Shown here: positions 1 to 7,902 of the stretch, piece after piece
How positions within the stretch are numbered: position 1 is the first letter of the stretch
Layout of the letters: the number at the start of each line of letters is the position of its first letter
Translations under genes and position numbers: made by a program
The notes under the pieces: model-generated
The model's input: only the letters and a program-made list of their open reading frames with translations
Told to the model about the DNA's origin: nothing
Database searches by the model: none
Assembly (NCBI GenBank): GCA_004293505.1
Contig: RDYY01000005.1
Location: 1-15,223 of the forward strand
Direction of reading: 5' to 3'
DNA: 15,223 bases
Source: Sphingobacteriia bacterium
GTDB lineage: Bacteria > Bacteroidota > Bacteroidia > Chitinophagales > Chitinophagaceae

Positions 1-687
1 ATAATTGATTTGTTCGGGTTGGGGTTTTCTGGCTTGGAACCTAAAACGGGCATGGTTTTCATGTACTACCTCCCAACCAAAATGCGCCAACACAGACAAG
101 GTCAAATCAATATAAGGTTTGCTCTTCAAGTCATTTACTTCAATCACCACATCAGTGTTTGCTGTTGTGGCAAAAGCCATGAGCAATCCGGTCAAAAACT
201 GGGAACTCATAGATCCATCTATTTGGATGCTGCGGGCTTGCAAAGGGCCTTTCACCTCCAAGGGCAATTTGCCACCCTGTGTGCTGACGCCAACACCCAA
301 TTGGGGCAAGACCTCGTCAAAAAAATCCATGGGGCGTTTCACCAAACTTCCCCTTCCCTGAATGGTCAAAGCTTGGTCAGACAAAGCTGCCAAGGGAGTA
401 AACATGCGGATGCCCAACCCACTCTCCCCACAATCCAAGACCTTGGTTTGGGGATGAACACCTTGGGAGATGATGCGCAAACGCCCATCGGGTAGCGCGT
501 CTACCTTGGCCCCTAATGCCTGGATCACCGACAAAGCTGCCAGGTCATCATCGGCTTTTCCGGGGCGAGACAAAATGGTTTCTCCTTGGTGCAACAAAGC
601 AGCTGCACAGGCCCTTTGCATGGAACTTTTACTGGGCGGTGCTGGAATGGTTCCATTTACTTTACCTGGAACGATGGTTTCAACCAT
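1..687 (-). CDS. aroA: 3-phosphoshikimate 1-carboxyvinyltransferase (EPSP synthase), N-terminal 229 residues, cut by window edge
   Basis: Joins shikimate-3-phosphate to phosphoenolpyruvate, the sixth step of the shikimate pathway, in the cytoplasm. The reading frame is open from ATG at 687 to base 1. It begins MVETIVPGKVNG and then shows the substrate-binding stretch PPSKSSMQRA (Lys20, Ser21, Arg25), normal for the start of the enzyme. A second family block, LDCGESGLGIRMF, sits near residue 85, and GSMSSQFLTGLL near residue 155 resembles the conserved SSQFLTALLM block. Only about half of the usual 410-430 residues are present, because the gene runs off the left edge rather than being broken. 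The ATG lies inside the last codons of aroB (8-base overlap, 680-687), so translation is probably coupled. It is the last operon gene visible here. Identification is firm. Confidence 0.95.
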   Translation of the reverse strand, partial: MVETIVPGKVNGTIPAPPSKSSMQRACAAALLHQGETILSRPGKADDDLAALSVIQALGAKVDALPDGRLRIISQGVHPQTKVLDCGESGLGIRMFTPLAALSDQALTIQGRGSLVKRPMDFFDEVLPQLGVGVSTQGGKLPLEVKGPLQARSIQIDGSMSSQFLTGLLMAFATTANTDVVIEVNDLKSKPYIDLTLSVLAHFGWEVVHENHARFRFQARKPQPEQINY

Positions 688-1696
688 GGTGAACGAGCTT
701 TTGAAAATCTTTCAACAATTGTTCTACTTGTACCAGCAACAAGGGCTGTACCACTCCCTGCCCTGTTTTTGCCAACAGCACAAAATGAATGTCCACCCCA
801 TTCGATTTTTTGTCCTTGACCAATACCTTGAATGCTTGGCGGGCATCAAAGTCAGAAAGGGTGGGCAGACCATAACGCTGCAACAAGCCCATGAGGGCTG
901 TCAGGTCTTTGTAACCTTTGATATAGGCTGATACCCAAGCGGCAAAACTCATCCCTATGCTGATGGCTTCGCCATGGCTAAGCGCATATTTGTTTTCAAT
1001 TGCATGCCCCAAAGTGTGGCCAAAATTGAGCAATTTCCTTTCGCCCTGTTCCAAAGGATCTTGGGTAATGACTTTGATTTTGATCTGAGCATTGCGTTTG
1101 ACCAAACTGGCCAAATCGATTGGGTTCTTGCGGTAATGGTTGAGGGTATGGGTTTGCAAGTCCCGAAACATTTTGGCGTCTTTGATGGCGGCGTGCTTGA
1201 TGATTTCAGCAAAGCCATTGCGCCACTCTGCCAAAGGAAGGGTCTTCAACAGGTTAAAATCATAGAGCAAAAAATGTGGTTGACGGATAAGCCCTACCAT
1301 GTTTTTGTATTCTCCTACATCCACCCCATTTTTCCCGCCAATGGCAGCATCTACCATGGACAACAAAGTAGTAGGTACAAAACCAAAACGAATACCACGT
1401 TGATAAATGCCAGCTACGTAGCCGGTCAAGTCTGTTATGACCCCACCCCCAACACCCACCAAAGTGGATTGGCGATGGGCACCCATGGCCAACAAGCGGT
1501 CAATGACCACATCAACTGTTTGCTGCACTTTATAGGCTTCTCCCGCTTTGAGCACAATGGTATTCCAACCCTTGAACTTTGATTTGTGGGCAGCAAAGAC
1601 ATTTTCGTCGGTGACCAAAAAACTATCTGCTGGATTTGCCCATTTTTCCAATTGGGCAAAAGCGCCCTGCCAAATATATTGGGTCTTGGTGTCCAT
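680..1696 (-). CDS. aroB: 3-dehydroquinate synthase
   Basis: Converts DAHP to 3-dehydroquinate, the second shikimate step, using NAD+ and a divalent metal. The 338-residue product is close to the usual 340-370. The glycine-rich NAD-binding block GVGGGVITDLTGY is at about residues 81-93, and PTTLLSMVDAAIGGKNGVD at about 108-126. The expected metal ligands are Glu164 (in GFAEIIKHAA), His227 (in LNFGHTLGHAIE) and His241 (in LSHGEA). The start ATG at 1696 overlaps the stop of the upstream DAHP synthase gene by one base (TAATG). The aroA start lies inside its own end. These overlaps indicate one co-transcribed, probably translationally coupled unit. No unusual residues were seen. Confidence 0.97.
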   Translation of the reverse strand: MDTKTQYIWQGAFAQLEKWANPADSFLVTDENVFAAHKSKFKGWNTIVLKAGEAYKVQQTVDVVIDRLLAMGAHRQSTLVGVGGGVITDLTGYVAGIYQRGIRFGFVPTTLLSMVDAAIGGKNGVDVGEYKNMVGLIRQPHFLLYDFNLLKTLPLAEWRNGFAEIIKHAAIKDAKMFRDLQTHTLNHYRKNPIDLASLVKRNAQIKIKVITQDPLEQGERKLLNFGHTLGHAIENKYALSHGEAISIGMSFAAWVSAYIKGYKDLTALMGLLQRYGLPTLSDFDARQAFKVLVKDKKSNGVDIHFVLLAKTGQGVVQPLLLVQVEQLLKDFQKLVHHG

Positions 1697-2781
1697 TAAC
1701 TGTTCATGATTTTGTTTTGGTGCTGAATGCTTTCCATGTGTACAGCATCAAAATATTTGGTGATAAACTCTTTGCTCAAACCAATTTTTTCTCCCCTTGC
1801 ATAGGCCCTTTCCAAAATGGCATTCCAACGATTGGTTTGTAATATGGTGATGTTGTTGTCTTTTTTGTATTGGCCAATTTGGTCGGCAATTTTCATGCGT
1901 TGTCCCAACAGCAACATCAGTTCGTCATCCAGTTGATTGATCTGAGCCCGCAATTTTTCCATGTTGGCATGGAGTTGTTCAGAGTCAATGTCTTCTTTGC
2001 GCCAAATGATGCCTTCCAACATGGCACCCATTTGTGCTGGGGTAATTTGTTGTTTGGCATCGCTCCAAGCATTGTCGGGATCTATGTGGCTCTCCACAAT
2101 CAAGCCATCAAAATCCAAGTCAATGGCTTTCTGCGCCACTTCAGCCAAAATATCCCGGCGGCCACAAATATGAGAAGGGTCATTGATCAAGAGCATGCCT
2201 GGATGGCGGCGCTTCATTTCAATGGCCAAATGCCACATGGGTGCATTGCGGTATTCAGTATTGCCATAGGAACTAAATCCCCGGTGGATGAGGCCAATGT
2301 TTTCAATGCCTGCTTTGGCAACCCTTTCAACGGCTCCTATCCACAATTCCAAATCGGGGTTGATGGGGTTTTTGATCAAAACAGGTACGTTAACACCGCG
2401 CAAAGCATCAGCTACTTCTTGTACACTAAAGGGATTAACGGTGGTACGGGCCCCAATCCACAACACATCTACGCCAAAATGCAAAGCATCTTCAACTTGT
2501 TTTCCAGTGGCCACTTCTACGGCAACGGGCAAACCAGATATTTTTTTGGCTTGTTGCAACCAAGGCAATCCCTTGGTGCCCACGCCTTCAAAACTGCCCG
2601 GACGGGTGCGGGGTTTCCAAATACCTGCGCGCAGGATATCAATCTTTCCAGTGGCCGCTAACTGGCTGGCAGTGGCCAAAACTTGTTCTTCGGTTTCTGC
2701 ACTACAAGGTCCAGAAATGACCAAGGGTCTTTTGGCCAAAATGGCGGTCAGGTCAAGGGGTGCTAAGCTTGTTTTTTCCAT
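1696..2781 (-). CDS. aroF: Bifunctional 3-deoxy-7-phosphoheptulonate (DAHP) synthase / chorismate mutase
   Basis: A fusion of the first shikimate enzyme with the chorismate-to-prephenate enzyme. The N-terminal domain, about residues 15-260, is a type I-beta DAHP synthase without the long N-terminal regulatory extension. It has GPCSAE (24-29, metal Cys26), KPRTRPGSFEG (56-66), IKNPINPD (136-143), GLIHRGFSSYG (163-173), DPSH (201-204) and VESH (229-232). The C-terminal domain, about 270-361, is an AroQ-type all-helical chorismate mutase: MEKLRAQINQLDDELMLLL, then RMKIADQIGQYK. Synthase followed by mutase is a known arrangement in Bacteroidota (Porphyromonas, Prevotella). In that family the mutase domain mediates prephenate feedback on the synthase; whether that holds here is inference. 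The start ATG at 2781 lies 54 bases after the helicase gene. The symbol aroF is a label of convenience. Confidence 0.96.
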   Translation of the reverse strand: MEKTSLAPLDLTAILAKRPLVISGPCSAETEEQVLATASQLAATGKIDILRAGIWKPRTRPGSFEGVGTKGLPWLQQAKKISGLPVAVEVATGKQVEDALHFGVDVLWIGARTTVNPFSVQEVADALRGVNVPVLIKNPINPDLELWIGAVERVAKAGIENIGLIHRGFSSYGNTEYRNAPMWHLAIEMKRRHPGMLLINDPSHICGRRDILAEVAQKAIDLDFDGLIVESHIDPDNAWSDAKQQITPAQMGAMLEGIIWRKEDIDSEQLHANMEKLRAQINQLDDELMLLLGQRMKIADQIGQYKKDNNITILQTNRWNAILERAYARGEKIGLSKEFITKYFDAVHMESIQHQNKIMNS

Positions 2782-2835: not shown

Positions 2836-4497
2836 TTATCTCCTATCGGCGTCATTCATGCGAATGCTGCGGCCTTTGTATTTTTTGCCATCCAAGGCCC
2901 GGATCATTTGCTGGGCGGCGGAGGGTTCAATCTCAATCCAAGAATTCATGTCTTTCATGTCAATTTTTCCCAACACCTCTTTTCTCAGGTCACTCATGTC
3001 CAGGATGTATTGCAGAAAACTGGCTTTGAAAAATCCGTCCTTGGTACCCAAGTTGACAAAAAGCCTGGCATAGGCACCGCCTTTTTTGTAGGCTTTGCGG
3101 TTATCGCCTCGGCCAAAGTCTTTGGACTTGTCAAAGGCCTGGGGCTGGTCTTTTCTGCCCTTGTCTTTTTCGCGCAGGTTCAAATCAGCCGCATTTTCGT
3201 AATATTTCAAGAAGCGATCAAATTCCAATGCTGCAAAGCGTTTGAGGATATCGGCTTTGTCCAAGTCGGCAAATTTTTCTTCCAGCATGGGCACATAGGT
3301 TTCATAGTCTCCATGGCTCACATCAACTTTCAAAAGTTTGTCTACAAAATGAAAAAATTGTTTGCGACAAACATCCTTACCAGAAGGTATGTCTAAGCGG
3401 TGAAAAGGTGATTTGTTGATGCGCTCAATTTGCTTGAGTTTATAAGACTCCTTGGCGTGTACAATGGAAACGCAAATGCCCTGGTTGCCTGCCCGGCCAG
3501 TTCGGCCACTGCGGTGGGTATAGACTTCCACATCGTCGGGCAATTCGTAGTTGATCACGTGGGTAATCCCTTGCACATCAATGCCCCGGGCAGCCACATC
3601 AGTTGCAATCAAGAGTTGGAGGCTTTTGTCGCGGAACTGCCCCATGACGCGGTCGCGCTGGGCCTGGGTCAGGTCTCCGTGCAGGGCGTCAATGTCATAG
3701 CCCTCACGCGTTAATTTTTCAGAAATGTCTTGGGCATCAATTTTGGTTCGGGTAAAAATGATGCCATAAATACCTGGGTTAAAATCAATGATGCGCTTCA
3801 AGGTTTCGTAGCGGTGGTGGGCCGTGGTCACATAGTATTGGTGGTCTATGTTTTGGTTGACGGCATTCATTTTGCCAACCGTGATTTCCTTGGGCTCTTT
3901 CATGTAACGCTTGCTCACCTTTCTGATTTCAGGTGGCATGGTGGCACTGAAGAGCCAAGTGCTGTCCCGCTTGGGGGTATTCTTCAAAATGAATTCAATG
4001 TCTTCTTGAAAGCCCATGTTGAGCATTTCATCGGCCTCGTCCAAGACCACGTATTGGATTTCTTCTAGGTTGATGGCTTTTCTTTCGATCAAATCAATCA
4101 ATCGACCGGGTGTAGCCACTACAATTTGAACCCCTCTTTTGATGTCTTTGATTTGCAAGCCAATGGATGTACCCCCATAAACAGCTACCACACTCACGTG
4201 GGGCATGTTTTGTTTGAAGAGGGTCAATTCATTCACAATTTGCATGCAAAGCTCCCGGGTGGGACAAACTACCAAAGCTTGGGGATGGCGAACTGTTTCA
4301 TCTATGACTTGCAACAAAGGCAGGCCAAAAGCAGCTGTTTTGCCCGTACCGGTTTGGGCCAATCCAATGAAATCGGTGGTCCCACTCAGCAAAATGGGAA
4401 TGGCTTGCTCCTGAATAGAAGTGGGGTGCTGATAACCCAAAGAAGAGACGGCTTGCAACAGCCTTTCTTCTATGCCTAAATCTTGAAATGTTGTCAT
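2836..4497 (-). CDS. deaD: DEAD-box ATP-dependent RNA helicase with DbpA-type RNA-binding domain
   Basis: An ATP-driven RNA-unwinding enzyme of the DeaD/CsdA/DbpA group, usually acting in ribosome assembly, cold adaptation or mRNA turnover. The 553-residue product has the full motif set: Q motif (GYQHPTSIQEQ, 21-31), I AQTGTGKT (47-54), Ia PTREL (79-83), GG (108-109), Ib TPGR (129-132), II DEAD (153-156), III SAT (184-186), V ATDVAARGID (298-307) and VI HRSGRTGR (328-335). A charged linker leads to YARLFVNLGTKDGF and a DbpA RNA-binding (RRM-like) fold at about 475-548. The frame stays open 40 codons further upstream, but that part overlaps tyrA and looks unlike a helicase, so ATG 4497 (MTTFQDLG) is chosen. 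It lies 41 bases after tyrA inside an aromatic operon, an unexpected place. The exact subfamily symbol is less sure than the class. Confidence 0.94.
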   Translation of the reverse strand: MTTFQDLGIEERLLQAVSSLGYQHPTSIQEQAIPILLSGTTDFIGLAQTGTGKTAAFGLPLLQVIDETVRHPQALVVCPTRELCMQIVNELTLFKQNMPHVSVVAVYGGTSIGLQIKDIKRGVQIVVATPGRLIDLIERKAINLEEIQYVVLDEADEMLNMGFQEDIEFILKNTPKRDSTWLFSATMPPEIRKVSKRYMKEPKEITVGKMNAVNQNIDHQYYVTTAHHRYETLKRIIDFNPGIYGIIFTRTKIDAQDISEKLTREGYDIDALHGDLTQAQRDRVMGQFRDKSLQLLIATDVAARGIDVQGITHVINYELPDDVEVYTHRSGRTGRAGNQGICVSIVHAKESYKLKQIERINKSPFHRLDIPSGKDVCRKQFFHFVDKLLKVDVSHGDYETYVPMLEEKFADLDKADILKRFAALEFDRFLKYYENAADLNLREKDKGRKDQPQAFDKSKDFGRGDNRKAYKKGGAYARLFVNLGTKDGFFKASFLQYILDMSDLRKEVLGKIDMKDMNSWIEIEPSAAQQMIRALDGKKYKGRSIRMNDADRR

Positions 4498-4538
4498 CTG
4501 TTTGTTTTTGTGCGGACCTGGATCCGGCGGTGAAGGGC

Positions 4539-5378
4539 TCAACCCAAAATACGCCGAATCCCATTGGCGTGCTGAATGAGTTCCTGTAAATATTCTTTGT
4601 TTTCTTTTTCCAGACAAGCTTTGAATTTGCGCAATTGGCTGATGTGCTCATTCAGGACATCCAGAAGGTTTTCCTTGTTTTGTAAAAAAATGGGGACCCA
4701 CATGTTGGGGTCGCTTTTGGCCAAACGGACTGTACTTTCAAATCCCCCACTGGCCAATTCAAAAATGGCTTCTTCTTCTCTTTCTTTTCCCAATACGGTA
4801 TTGGCCAAAGCAAAAGAAGTGATGTGCGAAATATGGCTGATATAAGCAACGTGCATGTCGTGTTCATCGGCCTTCATGTACATCAAATGCATGCCCAAGT
4901 TTTGGTACAAATTTTCCACCCAAGTCAAAGCATCAGGGGCCGTGTTTTCGCGGTCGCAAATCACACAAGCTTTTCCTTGAAAGGCGCCTTGTACAGCTGC
5001 CAGCGGGCCGCTGTTTTCAGTACCCCACATGGGATGGGTAGCTACCCAACGGCCCCGTTTGGGATGGTTTTGGATGGCAGAGACCAGGTTGGCTTTGGTA
5101 GATCCCATGTCCAACAAAATGTGGCCTTGGGTTTGGTCCAACAAGGTTTGGGCCAAGGGCAAAGCCACATCAACTGGGGTGGCCAAAACCACCACATCCA
5201 CCAGCGCCATCAAATCTTCCAGTGGCACAACTTGGTCCACAAGCCCTCTTTCCAATGCTTGTGCTGCGTGCAGCGCATTATTGTCTGTGCCTACCAATTG
5301 GGTAGCCAAGCCTTTGTTGCGCAGGGCCAAAGCCATCGACCCGCCCATCAACCCCAATCCAATGATACCTATTTTCAT
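4539..5378 (-). CDS. tyrA: Prephenate (or arogenate) dehydrogenase
   Basis: Oxidative decarboxylation on the tyrosine branch. The 279-residue protein starts with a Rossmann dinucleotide site, IGIIGLGLMGGS (3-14), and Asp32 at the end of the second strand suggests NAD+ rather than NADP+. THPMWGTENSG (114-124) is the family's substrate-site block, and the C-terminal half is the all-helical dimerisation domain (SHISHITSFALA, ASGGFESTVRLA). There is no attached chorismate mutase or ACT domain; the mutase is supplied by the downstream DAHP synthase fusion. ATG 5378 overlaps the aminotransferase stop by four bases (ATGA). Sequence alone does not settle prephenate versus arogenate as substrate. That depends on whether the neighbouring aminotransferase acts on prephenate. 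Confidence 0.95.
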   Translation of the reverse strand: MKIGIIGLGLMGGSMALALRNKGLATQLVGTDNNALHAAQALERGLVDQVVPLEDLMALVDVVVLATPVDVALPLAQTLLDQTQGHILLDMGSTKANLVSAIQNHPKRGRWVATHPMWGTENSGPLAAVQGAFQGKACVICDRENTAPDALTWVENLYQNLGMHLMYMKADEHDMHVAYISHISHITSFALANTVLGKEREEEAIFELASGGFESTVRLAKSDPNMWVPIFLQNKENLLDVLNEHISQLRKFKACLEKENKEYLQELIQHANGIRRILG

Positions 5379-6544
5379 GTTATTTGTACTTGGGTTTTAA
5401 TGCGTTGAATGGCTTCTTCCATTTTAGACAAGGGGCTGCACAAACTCACGCGTATGAAACGGTTCCCTGCCGATCCAAATATGCCACCAGGCGTGATGAA
5501 AACCCCAACAGCATGCAACCAATGGTCGCTGAAGGCAAAAGCATCTGTGGCATCGCTGGGTATTTTGGCCCAAGAAAAAAGACCTGCTTGTCCTGGAGCT
5601 GGTTCACAGCCCAATTGACGCAACAATTCTTCTGCTTTTTGCCGCCGCATGGCATAGGTCTCATTCAGGGAACGGTACCACTCAGGGCCTAAGTTCAGCG
5701 CAGCAATGGCTGCTTTTTGAACCGGCAAAAACATGCCACTGTCCATGTTGCTCTTAAAAGTCAAAACCTGTTGCACCACCGTTGCGGATCCCATGAGCAT
5801 GCCCACGCGCCATCCCGCCATGTTGTGGCTCTTGCTCAAAGAATTGAGTTCAACTGCGGTGTCCAAAGCGCCAGGAACCGAAAAAATGCTGCTGGGGTCG
5901 GGGTTGCCAATAAAACTATAAGGGTTGTCGTGGCAAACCAAAATGTTGTTGGATTGACCAAATGCAATCAGTTGTTCAAAAACCCCTGTGGGCGGCAATT
6001 GCCCTGTGGGCATTTGCGGATAATTGACCCACATCATCTTGACCTTGCTCAAATCCAATTCAGACAATGCTGCCCAATTGGGCAGCCATTGGTTGCTTTC
6101 TTCCAAAGCATAAAAAACCGGCTCGGCCCCTGCCAATTTAACGGCTGATGCATATGTGGGATATCCAGGATTGGGCACCAACACTTGGTCTCCTGGGTTC
6201 AAATAGGTCATACACAAATGCAGGATGCCTTCTTTGGAACCCATCAAAGGCAAAACCTCTTTTTCAGGATCTAATATTACCCCATAAAACTGCTGGTACC
6301 ATTTGGCCATGGCTTGTCGCAAAGCGGGAATCCCTTTGTAGGACTGATAAGCATGGGCTTGGGGATCGGCTGCTGTTGTTTGGAGCGCCATGACCACACT
6401 GGGGTCGGGGGGCAAATCCGGGCTTCCAATACCCAAATTCAATACGTTTTTACCCGCTTGGTTCAGGGTCTCAATCTCGCGGAGTTTCTGGGAAAAATAG
6501 TACTCCCCAATTCCATTCAAACGGTCTGCTGTTTTGCGCATCAT
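5375..6544 (-). CDS. Class I/II PLP aminotransferase of the aromatic operon (candidate aromatic or prephenate aminotransferase)
   Basis: A fold-type I PLP aminotransferase that, by position, should catalyse the transamination step of Phe/Tyr synthesis. Of 389 residues, PLP-site landmarks are Asn174 (VNYPQMPTG), Asp206 and Tyr209 (CHDNPYS), Lys238 in NSLSKSHNMAGWRVG (Schiff base), and Arg365 in NRFIRVSL (substrate carboxylate). The sequence style (GSPDLPPDPSV, YQSYKGIPALRQA) resembles aspartate/LL-diaminopimelate-type aminotransferases, so annotation pipelines may call it that. I use ATG 6544, which overlaps the pheA stop by four bases (ATGATG containing TGA); ATG 6541 is equally possible. The frame extends upstream into pheA, but that part is not credible coding. 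The enzyme class is certain. The substrate (phenylpyruvate, 4-hydroxyphenylpyruvate or prephenate) is inferred from the operon. Confidence 0.9.
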   Translation of the reverse strand: MMRKTADRLNGIGEYYFSQKLREIETLNQAGKNVLNLGIGSPDLPPDPSVVMALQTTAADPQAHAYQSYKGIPALRQAMAKWYQQFYGVILDPEKEVLPLMGSKEGILHLCMTYLNPGDQVLVPNPGYPTYASAVKLAGAEPVFYALEESNQWLPNWAALSELDLSKVKMMWVNYPQMPTGQLPPTGVFEQLIAFGQSNNILVCHDNPYSFIGNPDPSSIFSVPGALDTAVELNSLSKSHNMAGWRVGMLMGSATVVQQVLTFKSNMDSGMFLPVQKAAIAALNLGPEWYRSLNETYAMRRQKAEELLRQLGCEPAPGQAGLFSWAKIPSDATDAFAFSDHWLHAVGVFITPGGIFGSAGNRFIRVSLCSPLSKMEEAIQRIKTQVQIT

Positions 6545-7407
6545 CCTTTCAATATTTTTCCTTTTTGATAAATCCCAAATACTTTTAACTGGCTGGTACA
6601 AGCGGCCAAGGCAGTCAATACTTTTTGGAAGGATTGGGGCGATTCAAACTCCATGTCAGCGTAAAAACCATATTTAAAATGACTCCCGGGTATGGGCATG
6701 CTTTGCAATTTGCTCAGGTTGATGCCACCTTTGGCAATAAGGGCCAAGACCTTGGCCAATATGCCTTTGGAGTGATCGGTTTGAAAGTAAACAGAAGCTT
6801 TGTTGGCTTTTGCATCGGGCAAAACATCCGCTTTTCTTTTCAGTACCAAAAACCGGGTGATGTTGTTTTTCTGGGTTTGAATATCAGGCACCAAAACGTC
6901 TAAGTCGTACAGTTCAGCCGCCAATTTGCTGGCAATGGCGGCACTGTGTTTGTGCTTGTGTTGCTGCAAATGTTTGGCGCTAAGGGCCGTGTCTTCGGTC
7001 TCTACCAATTTGAAGCGGTGTGTTTCCAAAAAGTCCATGCACTGTAGCAGGGCCATGGGATGGCTTTTCACTTCCTTGATGTCGGCCAATTGAACCCCTT
7101 TGTTCACCAATAGGTTTTGGCTGATGGACAAATACACTTCTCCCACTACTTGCAATTTGGATTGGTGCAACAAATTGTAATTGGGCAGAATACTGCCTGC
7201 AATGGAATTTTCGATGGCCATGACAGCACCTGCCGACAGGGTTGGATCGCCAGCCCATTTGACCAGGTCCCTGAAATGGTCACAGGGAATAACTTCTACC
7301 TTTTTTCCAAAAAACAAACGCGCAGCCACTTGGTGAAAGCTGCCGGCATATCCTTGGATACAAATGCCTTGGGGAAGTGCTGAAGAAATATGGCTGTTGG
7401 GGTTCAT
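6541..7407 (-). CDS. pheA: Prephenate dehydratase (or arogenate dehydratase) with C-terminal ACT domain
   Basis: Decarboxylates and dehydrates prephenate to phenylpyruvate on the Phe branch. The 288 residues comprise a dehydratase domain, about 12-190, starting IQGYAGSFHQVAA. It includes AIENSIAGSILPNYNLL (64-80) and the catalytic TRF motif (184-186, NNITRFLVL). A regulatory ACT domain follows at about 205-285 (SKGILAKVLALIAKGGINLSK). In it, the phenylalanine-binding motifs GALV and ESRP of other dehydratases appear as GILA and LQSMP. The frame is open to a GTG at 7434, and another in-frame ATG exists at 7431. Both lie inside a terminator hairpin, so I choose ATG 7407, whose product begins at the normal place for this family. 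It is the first enzyme gene of the operon and lies directly behind the attenuator. No chorismate mutase is fused. Confidence 0.94.
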   Translation of the reverse strand: MNPNSHISSALPQGICIQGYAGSFHQVAARLFFGKKVEVIPCDHFRDLVKWAGDPTLSAGAVMAIENSIAGSILPNYNLLHQSKLQVVGEVYLSISQNLLVNKGVQLADIKEVKSHPMALLQCMDFLETHRFKLVETEDTALSAKHLQQHKHKHSAAIASKLAAELYDLDVLVPDIQTQKNNITRFLVLKRKADVLPDAKANKASVYFQTDHSKGILAKVLALIAKGGINLSKLQSMPIPGSHFKYGFYADMEFESPQSFQKVLTALAACTSQLKVFGIYQKGKILKG

Positions 7408-7410
7408 GGT

Positions 7411-7441
7411 AAAAAAAAGGTCCCGGTTCATCACCGGGACC
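7411..7441 (-). terminator. Intrinsic terminator of the aromatic operon leader (attenuator)
   Basis: On the minus strand a perfect 9-bp stem, GGTCCCGGT / ACCGGGACC (7433-7441 and 7419-7427), with a five-base GATGA loop, is followed at once by eight T (7411-7418). This is a textbook Rho-independent terminator, yet it ends only three bases before the pheA ATG. It therefore cannot mark the end of the preceding transcript's gene set: upstream lie only the leader ORF and a promoter. Its position between a Phe/Tyr/Trp-rich leader ORF and the first biosynthetic gene makes it the attenuating terminator. On the plus strand the same stem has no T run after it. Confidence 0.93.
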
Positions 7442-7490
7442 TTTGTATTTGAATGTGCTTTTGATTAGGCGTTTACAAACAGGACCCGGT
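7433..7490 (-). promoter_or_regulatory. Predicted antiterminator pairing between leader ORF and terminator 5' arm
   Basis: Minus-strand segment 7490-7474, within the leader ORF, reads ACCGGGTCC, TG, TTTGTA. It can pair with minus-strand 7447-7433, TACAAA followed by GGTCCCGGT. Six pairs (TTTGTA/TACAAA), a two-base bulge, then eight of nine pairs with one U-U mismatch give 14 Watson-Crick pairs around a 26-base loop. This uses the whole ascending arm of the terminator, so the two structures exclude one another. The pairing segment starts about ten bases after the last codon of the aromatic run. A ribosome held early in that run would leave it free, and one translating to the stop codon would cover or disrupt it. 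The pairing is read directly from the sequence; the mechanism is inferred. Confidence 0.82.
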
Positions 7491-7545
7491 TACTTTTTGC
7501 AAAGTAAAAATAGAAGAAATAAAACCAGTTGCCGGATGACTGCAT
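7465..7545 (-). CDS. pheL: Aromatic leader peptide (26 residues) of the pheA-aro operon attenuator
   Basis: A short ORF, ATG 7545 to TAA 7465-7467, encoding 26 residues. Residues 7-15 are WFYFFYFYF: one Trp, five Phe and three Tyr in nine consecutive codons. The peptide continues AKSNRVLFVNA and stops 23 bases before the terminator. Such composition is the hallmark of leader peptides whose translation speed reports charged tRNA levels, as in enterobacterial pheL and trpL. Having all three aromatic residues fits the operon, which makes common-pathway enzymes as well as the Phe and Tyr branches. The ATG lies four bases after a perfect TAnnTTTG promoter box, so the transcript may be leaderless. 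Later codons of the same ORF encode the antiterminator strand. The symbol pheL is by functional analogy; I know of no homologue of this exact peptide. Confidence 0.88.
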   Translation of the reverse strand: MQSSGNWFYFFYFYFAKSNRVLFVNA

Positions 7546-7549
7546 ATTG

Positions 7550-7557
7550 CAAATATA
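7550..7557 (-). promoter_or_regulatory. -7 promoter box TATATTTG for the aromatic operon leader
   Basis: The minus strand reads TATATTTG, a perfect match to the Bacteroidota -7 consensus TAnnTTTG, followed by CAAT and the leader ATG. With the usual spacing, transcription would begin at or within a few bases of that ATG. The -33 TTG element is not clear; TTTTCG lies about 13-18 bases upstream. A terminator ends just upstream of it (7598-7628), as expected for an independent promoter. Confidence 0.6.
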
Positions 7558-7716: not shown

Positions 7717-7902
7717 TTACTTCTTGGTGGTGTCAACGGCAGCTTTAGCAGCAGTATCAACTGTTGCAGCAGCAGAATCAACAACAGGAGCAACAGCAGC
7801 AGTATCAGCTACAACAGCAGCAGAATCAGCGCTTACTTCTTTGTTTTCACCAGCACAGGCGGCGAAAGTACCGATGGCCAGAACCAATAACAGTTTTTTC
7901 AT
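7717..7902 (-). CDS. Small Ala/Asp-rich predicted lipoprotein (61 residues)
   Basis: I do not recognise a named family. The first 16 residues, MKKLLLVLAIGTFAAC, form a lipoprotein signal: two Lys, a hydrophobic core, and a lipobox ending FAAC with Cys16 as the likely lipidated residue. The mature part is low complexity: acidic residues, then a loosely periodic D[ST]AA motif (DSAA, DTAA, DSAA, DTAA, then DTTKK) spaced seven to nine residues apart, with no aromatic residues. It probably sits on the outer or inner membrane facing the periplasm as an extended or disordered tail. The gene stands alone, divergent from the sigma factor gene, with its own terminator. The signal peptide, terminator and A-rich start region make it a real gene; its role is unknown. 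Confidence 0.8.
   Translation of the reverse strand: MKKLLLVLAIGTFAACAGENKEVSADSAAVVADTAAVAPVVDSAAATVDTAAKAAVDTTKK

Follow-up and report, generated by a model that had tools for sequence, protein, structure and literature searches.

The window, i.e. the whole stretch of 15,223 nucleotides that was analyzed, carries on its minus strand an operon devoted to the biosynthesis of aromatic amino acids. Its first structural gene is pheA (prephenate dehydratase, 6541..7407; Pfam PF00800, 2.6e-54), followed by genes encoding a class I/II aminotransferase (5375..6601, with an uncertain start, 5375-6580 being used for Pfam; PF00155, 1.7e-60), TyrA (prephenate dehydrogenase, 4539..5378; PF02153 and PF20463), a DEAD-box RNA helicase with a DbpA domain (2836..4497, also with an uncertain start, 2836-4500 being used for Pfam; PF00270 and PF03880), a DAHP synthase-chorismate mutase fusion (DAHPS/CM, 1696..2781; PF00793 and PF01817), AroB (3-dehydroquinate synthase, 680..1696; PF01761 and PF24621) and AroA (EPSP synthase, 1..687, truncated by the edge of the window; PF00275). 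These Pfam assignments agree with the pheA-aminotransferase-tyrA-helicase-DAHPS/CM-aroB-aroA gene set of the original prediction. All 62 named loci for which 4.9 kb or more of downstream sequence is available keep the order pheA-aminotransferase-tyrA-DAHPS/CM. The helicase gene is located between tyrA and DAHPS/CM in 58 of them (where the compared region, about 5 kb, stops short of aroB and aroA) and upstream of pheA in the other four (L107, L109, L110 and L111). A small ORF encoding an alanine-rich, lipoprotein-like product lies upstream of the leader described below (about 7720-7900, minus strand).

The region preceding pheA begins with a promoter -7 box of the TAnnTTTG type, TATATTTG (7550..7557), located 4 nt ahead of the start codon (ATG at 7545) of a leader peptide ORF of 26 codons, MQSSGNWFYFFYFYFAKSNRVLFVNA, ending with TAA (7465..7545) and having related ORFs in relatives. 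This ORF includes nine aromatic codons, W F Y F F Y F Y F (7501..7527; 1 Trp, 5 Phe and 3 Tyr), the last of which (TTACTTT) pair with AAAGTAA, just ahead of the core of region 2, in hairpin 1 (7490..7507), as indicated by predicted folding and covariation. Region 2 (AACCGGGUCCUGUUUGUA, 7474..7491), also included in the leader ORF, is the 5′ strand of an antiterminator formed with region 3 (7433..7447), which can alternatively pair with region 4, according to the pairing tests reported below. Regions 3 and 4 and a U8 tract constitute an intrinsic terminator (7411..7444; predicted fold and covariation) whose stem, GGTCCCGGT/ACCGGGACC, has 9 perfect bp, or 12 bp counting AAA/UUU. The U8 tract (7418-7411) is followed by ACC and then by the ATG of pheA at 7407, the terminator ending 3 nt ahead of this gene. 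The leader RNA is more stable than 200 of 200 dinucleotide shuffles (z -3.15). The original prediction had listed the promoter box, the 26-codon ORF, its nine aromatic codons, the 9-bp hairpin with U8 and the 3-base gap to pheA; all of them were found on the minus strand, and the observation is thus confirmed. The antiterminator and hairpin 1 were absent from it and are added by the present analysis.

Among the 113 distinct leaders, 108 have a complete start; an exact TAnnTTTG box lies 0-12 nt ahead of the start in 77 of these 108, a box with at most one mismatch in 91, and none in 17. The commonest spacing between box and start is 7 nt (50 leaders), compared to 4 nt in the window. A box 4 nt from the ATG implies a leaderless or near-leaderless transcript, and transcription would begin at, or a few bases ahead of, the leader ATG. 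A TAnnTTTG-type consensus has been reported in flavobacteria, which are described in the available text of the same paper as devoid of Shine-Dalgarno sequences (PMC9723704).

The prevalence of the leader was assessed at 240 loci, from collections that share duplicates, with an automatic rule requiring, upstream of pheA, a short ORF with at least five aromatics in nine codons followed by a hairpin and a T-run. It retained 180 loci, corresponding to 145 distinct leader-terminator segments. The close set (n = 127) gathers the fetched part of the genus sample, the best 80 named pheA matches and the window; named contigs were treated as members of the family of the window (f1), most of them being labelled as Sediminibacterium, Chitinophagaceae or unclassified Bacteroidetes, others differently in a few cases. 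In this set, 123 loci are positive; two of the four others are contig ends (L010 and L045) and a leader ORF is visible by eye in the last two (L077 and L111). Visual inspection of loci missed by the rule revealed both leader and terminator in L154, L161, L167 and L111, and the ORF alone in L077. In the wider set, which includes one locus per genome, 55 of 81 loci from 19 of 29 families are positive by the automatic rule and 26 are negative; the nine f1 loci are all positive, and removing them leaves 46 of 72 loci and 18 of 28 families. None of the loci sampled from ten families (f3, f14, f17, f33, f42, f45, f46, f74, f82 and f84) showed a leader at pheA. The least selected sample is the even draw of the class, which we take to be Bacteroidia; 41 of its 149 genomes have a PF00800 match, and fractions refer to these 41. 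Twenty-nine carry a leader at pheA (26 detected automatically; L154, L161 and L167 by eye), two carry one at a DAHP synthase gene and none was found in 10. Relatives therefore do not lack the aromatic-rich ORF and terminator, a point on which the original prediction depended. In the other classes of the phylum, none of the 29 loci, which were the best-scoring ones and not a random draw, has a leader.

The location of the leader also proved variable. About 12 kb upstream of pheA were searched in eight genomes leaderless at pheA, leaving aside other such loci (e.g., L234, L143 and L168). This revealed a leader in two of them (L245 and L246, family f36), located at the head of the operon about 3.6 kb upstream of pheA (in L245, DAHPS/CM was identified by Pfam, aroB and aroA by eye from translations). 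The remaining six have no upstream leader with a terminator within about 12 kb, three of them holding an aromatic ORF devoid of terminator. In the same f36 family, three of six loci carry the leader at pheA (L166, L170 and L233); in two others (L145 and L146), pheA sits behind another gene and the aromatic leader with its terminator precedes DAHPS/CM instead (the leaders L245 and L246 above); the sixth locus is L234. The presence of the leader at DAHPS/CM in these rearranged operons suggests that the unit can mark the head of an aromatic operon rather than pheA itself. Furthermore, two aromatic ORFs, each with its own terminator, are visible by eye upstream of pheA in L116 (same place as L169; f18), L175 and L237 (f68) and L182 (f56).

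The simplest explanation of such a structure would be the ordinary terminator of an upstream transcript preceded by a short ORF of chance origin, and terminators are indeed frequent in bacterial intergenic regions. We consider it hardly credible. The arrangement recurs in 19 of 29 sampled families, and the own region 2/3 duplexes pass the re-pairing test described below. In addition, a scan of the contigs of the best 80 named loci (1,442,580 strand-bases) detected 79 short ORFs with at least six aromatics in nine codons and a nearby terminator within 420 nt upstream of pheA, but only one elsewhere on the same contigs, where 66 other such aromatic ORFs are all devoid of terminator. Eight successive Phe/Tyr codons, (TWY)x8, have a single match in the genome assembly (1,853,336 bases, 88% complete), at the leader. 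Given this single match and the clustering at pheA, a chance origin of the aromatic run is very unlikely.

The antiterminator and terminator pairings are mutually exclusive. In 40 aligned close leaders, 92.0% of the terminator cells are paired and 16 are changed on both sides, compared to a mean of 4.4 after shuffling. The antiterminator of the same leaders has 70.8% of cells paired over ten pairs and 14 cells changed on both sides, compared to 10.2 after shuffling (43 of 500 shuffles being as high), and its covariation score (0.073) is lower than that obtained after a one-column slide (0.102). This weak covariation of regions 2 and 3 among close relatives is due to a core that hardly varies; an extra CC in region 2 and an extra GG in region 3 nevertheless co-occur (GGGTCC/GGTCCC correspondence). 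More divergent leaders were also informative: 57 of them (46 from other families and 11 from f1) were chosen without use of complementarity, region 2 being set purely by its distance from the end of the aromatic codons (median onset 12 nt past the last one). Their own region 2/3 duplexes average -16.7 kcal/mol, compared to -10.9 kcal/mol for re-paired ones, with none of 20,000 permutations as good. The same holds for the 40 divergent leaders lacking CCGGG (-15.5 compared to -9.8 kcal/mol, none of 20,000 permutations as good). A dinucleotide-shuffle test of region 2 on the 113 distinct leaders gave only a moderate signal: the median z is -2.4, with 36% of leaders at 2/200 or less and 80% at 10/200 or less. 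In a swap table, ranks are mixed, the native leader being ranked first for seven of 30 terminators. Region 2 is included in the ORF in most close relatives, in a reading frame that varies (SRV vs RPG/KPG); its sequence is kept despite these frame changes, indicating conservation at the RNA level. The leader stop codon of L091, L095 and L099 lies just ahead of region 2, and the RNA of L091 beyond this early stop still resembles the pattern of close relatives.

Hairpin 1 links the end of the aromatic run to the following codons. It occurs as CTACTTT/AAAGTAG or as CTTCTTT with AAAGAAG or AAAGGAG in the 40 aligned relatives, 93.1% of its cells being paired and 21 being changed on both sides (shuffled mean 11.3). 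At the informative pair, 15 of the 19 rows with the Tyr codon TAC have the corresponding A-U, and 18 of the 20 rows with the Phe codon TTC have U-A or U-G, one further row being gapped. For the paired percentage, the changed cells and the covariation score, no shuffle out of 500 reaches the observed value; for the numbers of doubly changed pairs and of pair types, five and 82 shuffles do, respectively. Slid alignments are only 44 to 67% paired. Compared to synonymous recodings, the segment is on average more stable both in 99 close leaders (-4.95 vs -2.56 kcal/mol) and in 46 others (-6.30 vs -3.86 kcal/mol), although p is 0.05 or lower in just 25 of 145 leaders tested singly. In the window, only 2 nt are shared by hairpin 1 and region 2, and this hairpin is mostly compatible with the 2:3 pairing. 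Since it can coexist with the antiterminator, we read it as a pause hairpin that most likely pauses the polymerase and gives the ribosome time to catch up. The predicted fold of the full-length window RNA contains an extended 1:2 stem plus the terminator, and its AUCCGG/CCGGGU pairing would compete with the antiterminator.

The U-rich run could also be considered as an element acting at the RNA level, either an unstructured loading site or a tract that binds protein, the peptide being a by-product and an RNA-binding protein governing termination. In favor of this view, TTT, TTC, TAT and TAC codons are AT-rich, and the last aromatic codons are constrained by hairpin 1. However, the run stays in frame in an ORF starting at a set distance from the promoter box, it varies largely by Phe/Tyr exchange and third-position T/C (alignment inspected by eye), region 2 lies at a median of 12 nt past it and no Rfam family matches the window at gathering. 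Overall, this explanation appears very unlikely.

The composition of the peptides bears on what would be sensed. Both Phe and Tyr are present in all 108 distinct leader peptides (from 145 segments). Trp, counted inside the run window or at most two residues ahead of it, is present in 52 of 108 (33 of 62 in close relatives and 19 of 46 elsewhere). Means are 5.2 Phe, 3.2 Tyr and 0.5 Trp codons per distinct peptide. The proposal, based on codon content, that the leader would respond to all three aromatic amino acids fits the codons of the window; with Trp in just 52 of 108 peptides, it does not apply to every relative. An attenuator sensing essentially Phe and Tyr, in which the Trp codon would be a passenger and Trp supply would be left unread, is doubtful but is the alternative that we take most seriously. 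It agrees with the scarcity of Trp in the distinct peptides (mean of 0.5 codons). It also agrees with the presence, in the same genome, of a separate trp leader (peptide MKSINQIWWWHTDSFGGL, then a stop codon) that has WWW and no Phe/Tyr run and precedes a trpE-like gene. This leader (L171, contig C172, minus strand, about base 768 of the reverse complement) has a TATTTG box and a terminator recognized by eye, and its locus has no Rfam match at gathering. Nevertheless, the aromatic run of the window opens with a Trp codon, the operon also yields chorismate, the precursor of Trp, and a single hungry codon can stall a ribosome.

The consequences of ribosome position were modelled by folding the window RNA up to region 3 with an assumed blocked footprint of 30 nt. 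An extended antiterminator is predicted when the A site is placed at any of the five aromatic codons tested (total energy -17.4 to -20.8). Placing it at the stop codon reduces the antiterminator to a 6-bp core (-13.6), which the 12-bp terminator should displace. Over 145 leaders, the number of region 2:3 pairs with the ribosome at the stop, compared to the first aromatic codon, is lower in 106, equal in 31 and higher in eight. At least six of these pairs persist at the stop in 90 of 99 close leaders and 24 of 46 others, so occlusion by a ribosome at the stop is incomplete in the model. The window RNA devoid of ribosome, up to region 3, also folds into the antiterminator, suggesting that the default state of untranslated RNA may be read-through.

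Taken as a whole, conservation, mixed codon content, region 2/3 pairing, covariation, footprint folding and relocated leaders lead us to consider, with a probability of roughly 0.88, that this region is a ribosome-mediated transcription attenuator whose readout is the joint availability of charged Phe-, Tyr- and, here, Trp-tRNAs. These comparative and modelling data support the interpretation of the original prediction. Transcription would begin at or just ahead of the leader ATG, and a ribosome would trail RNA polymerase across the nine aromatic codons. If any one of the three charged tRNAs were short, the ribosome would slow within the aromatic run, leaving region 2, about 12 nt further on, free to pair with region 3; the terminator would then not form and the polymerase would continue into pheA and the following genes, up to aroA (aminotransferase, tyrA, helicase, DAHPS/CM, aroB and aroA). 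If all charged tRNAs were ample, the ribosome would advance through region 2 as far as the stop codon, thereby covering part of this region, so that regions 3 and 4 could make the terminator just ahead of pheA.

A different reading of leader translation, similar to that of TnaC, would be that a free aromatic amino acid and the nascent peptide together stall the ribosome, an excess rather than a shortage being sensed. Such a device could account for the conservation, among close relatives, of peptide tails past region 2 (SRVxFxKA), but the tail overlaps the antiterminator, shifts in frame and sequence between lineages and is missing from L091, L095 and L099, whose stop codon precedes region 2, and the operon is biosynthetic. 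We therefore consider this reading even less probable than a protein-bound RNA element and retain the attenuator responding to charged tRNA supply.

Leader-peptide attenuation is a textbook principle, and this part of the mechanism is already known. The enterobacterial pheA attenuator (Rfam RF01859, Phe_leader) likewise combines a Phe-rich leader with an antiterminator/terminator choice ahead of pheA, and the corresponding model gives only a sub-threshold score in the window (20.8 bits for a gathering threshold of 55). The window differs from it by its near-leaderless start, its wider operon and an overlap of hairpin 1 and region 2 limited to 2 nt. Furthermore, the pheA leader of Escherichia coli has Phe and is not known to have a run of Tyr or Trp, whereas all 108 distinct peptides here combine Phe with Tyr. 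In the trp operon of E. coli, a 1:2 hairpin competes with the antiterminator, whereas hairpin 1 appears largely compatible with it here and RNA devoid of ribosome is also predicted to form the antiterminator. The ilvGMEDA and thr leaders of E. coli also have, in one leader, codons for several products of a pathway, but these are branched-chain amino acids or Thr/Ile instead of aromatic ones.

In Bacteroidetes, the Bacteroid-trp motif has been linked to trp leader peptides. This cis-regulatory motif (RF01692; Weinberg 2010, PMC2864571) matches neither the window nor any of 12 related loci at gathering, the trpE-leader locus of the same genome being one of these 12. No T-box or known riboswitch matches the window above gathering, and Rfam searches, run both at gathering and with E values of up to 5, gave nothing relevant beyond the sub-threshold Phe_leader. 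Near another pheA locus, a Flavo-1 match was detected (L152:2434-2511). The tandem attenuators of Salmonella mgtCBR, as described in the available text of PMC3641672, also have two short leader ORFs per operon, like L116, L175, L237 and L182; in these four loci, however, both ORFs are aromatic-rich and each has a terminator, and the window has only one unit. Among the matches listed, and with most subscription journals lying outside the search, only PMC9723704 bears on pheA leaders of Bacteroidota. It reports a structured 5′ element at pheA of Flavobacterium psychrophilum, conserved in Flavobacteriaceae, which is thus already known, and contains hints that amino acid operons may have leader peptides. 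The element concerns the same phylum and the same gene, but the available text mentions no pheA leader peptide, codon content, antiterminator or spread beyond Flavobacteriaceae; that of PMC4833913 does not mention pheA. Among the matches listed, again with most subscription journals outside the search, none describes leaders that mix Phe, Tyr and Trp, such a spread or the hairpin coupling. Within the scope of these searches, four features are new: the mixed-aromatic design shared across families, the hairpin coupled to the codons, the near-leaderless starts and the tandem copies.

These features can tentatively be joined in a broader scheme, to which we give somewhat less than an even chance. 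The leader would be a near-leaderless, multivalent attenuator found across the class, in which the ribosome, and not a competing hairpin, would block the antiterminator and untranslated RNA would read through. Whether Tyr or Phe closes the run would be coupled by hairpin 1 to the next codons, the unit would follow the head of the operon (pheA or DAHP synthase), and its serial doubling in several lineages would sharpen the response.

As far as our searches show, the control of amino acid biosynthesis in Bacteroidota has been little described. This work proposes, for numerous families of the class, a concrete and testable regulator of the aromatic pathway, in which one leader would read two or three amino acids. 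Natural comparisons are provided by the presence or absence of Trp in the leader, by tandem leaders and rearranged operons, and by the position of the stop codon before or after region 2. If the mechanism is true, it would involve a tight coupling of transcription and translation on near-leaderless mRNAs, in bacteria described, for flavobacteria, as devoid of Shine-Dalgarno sequences in the available text of PMC9723704.
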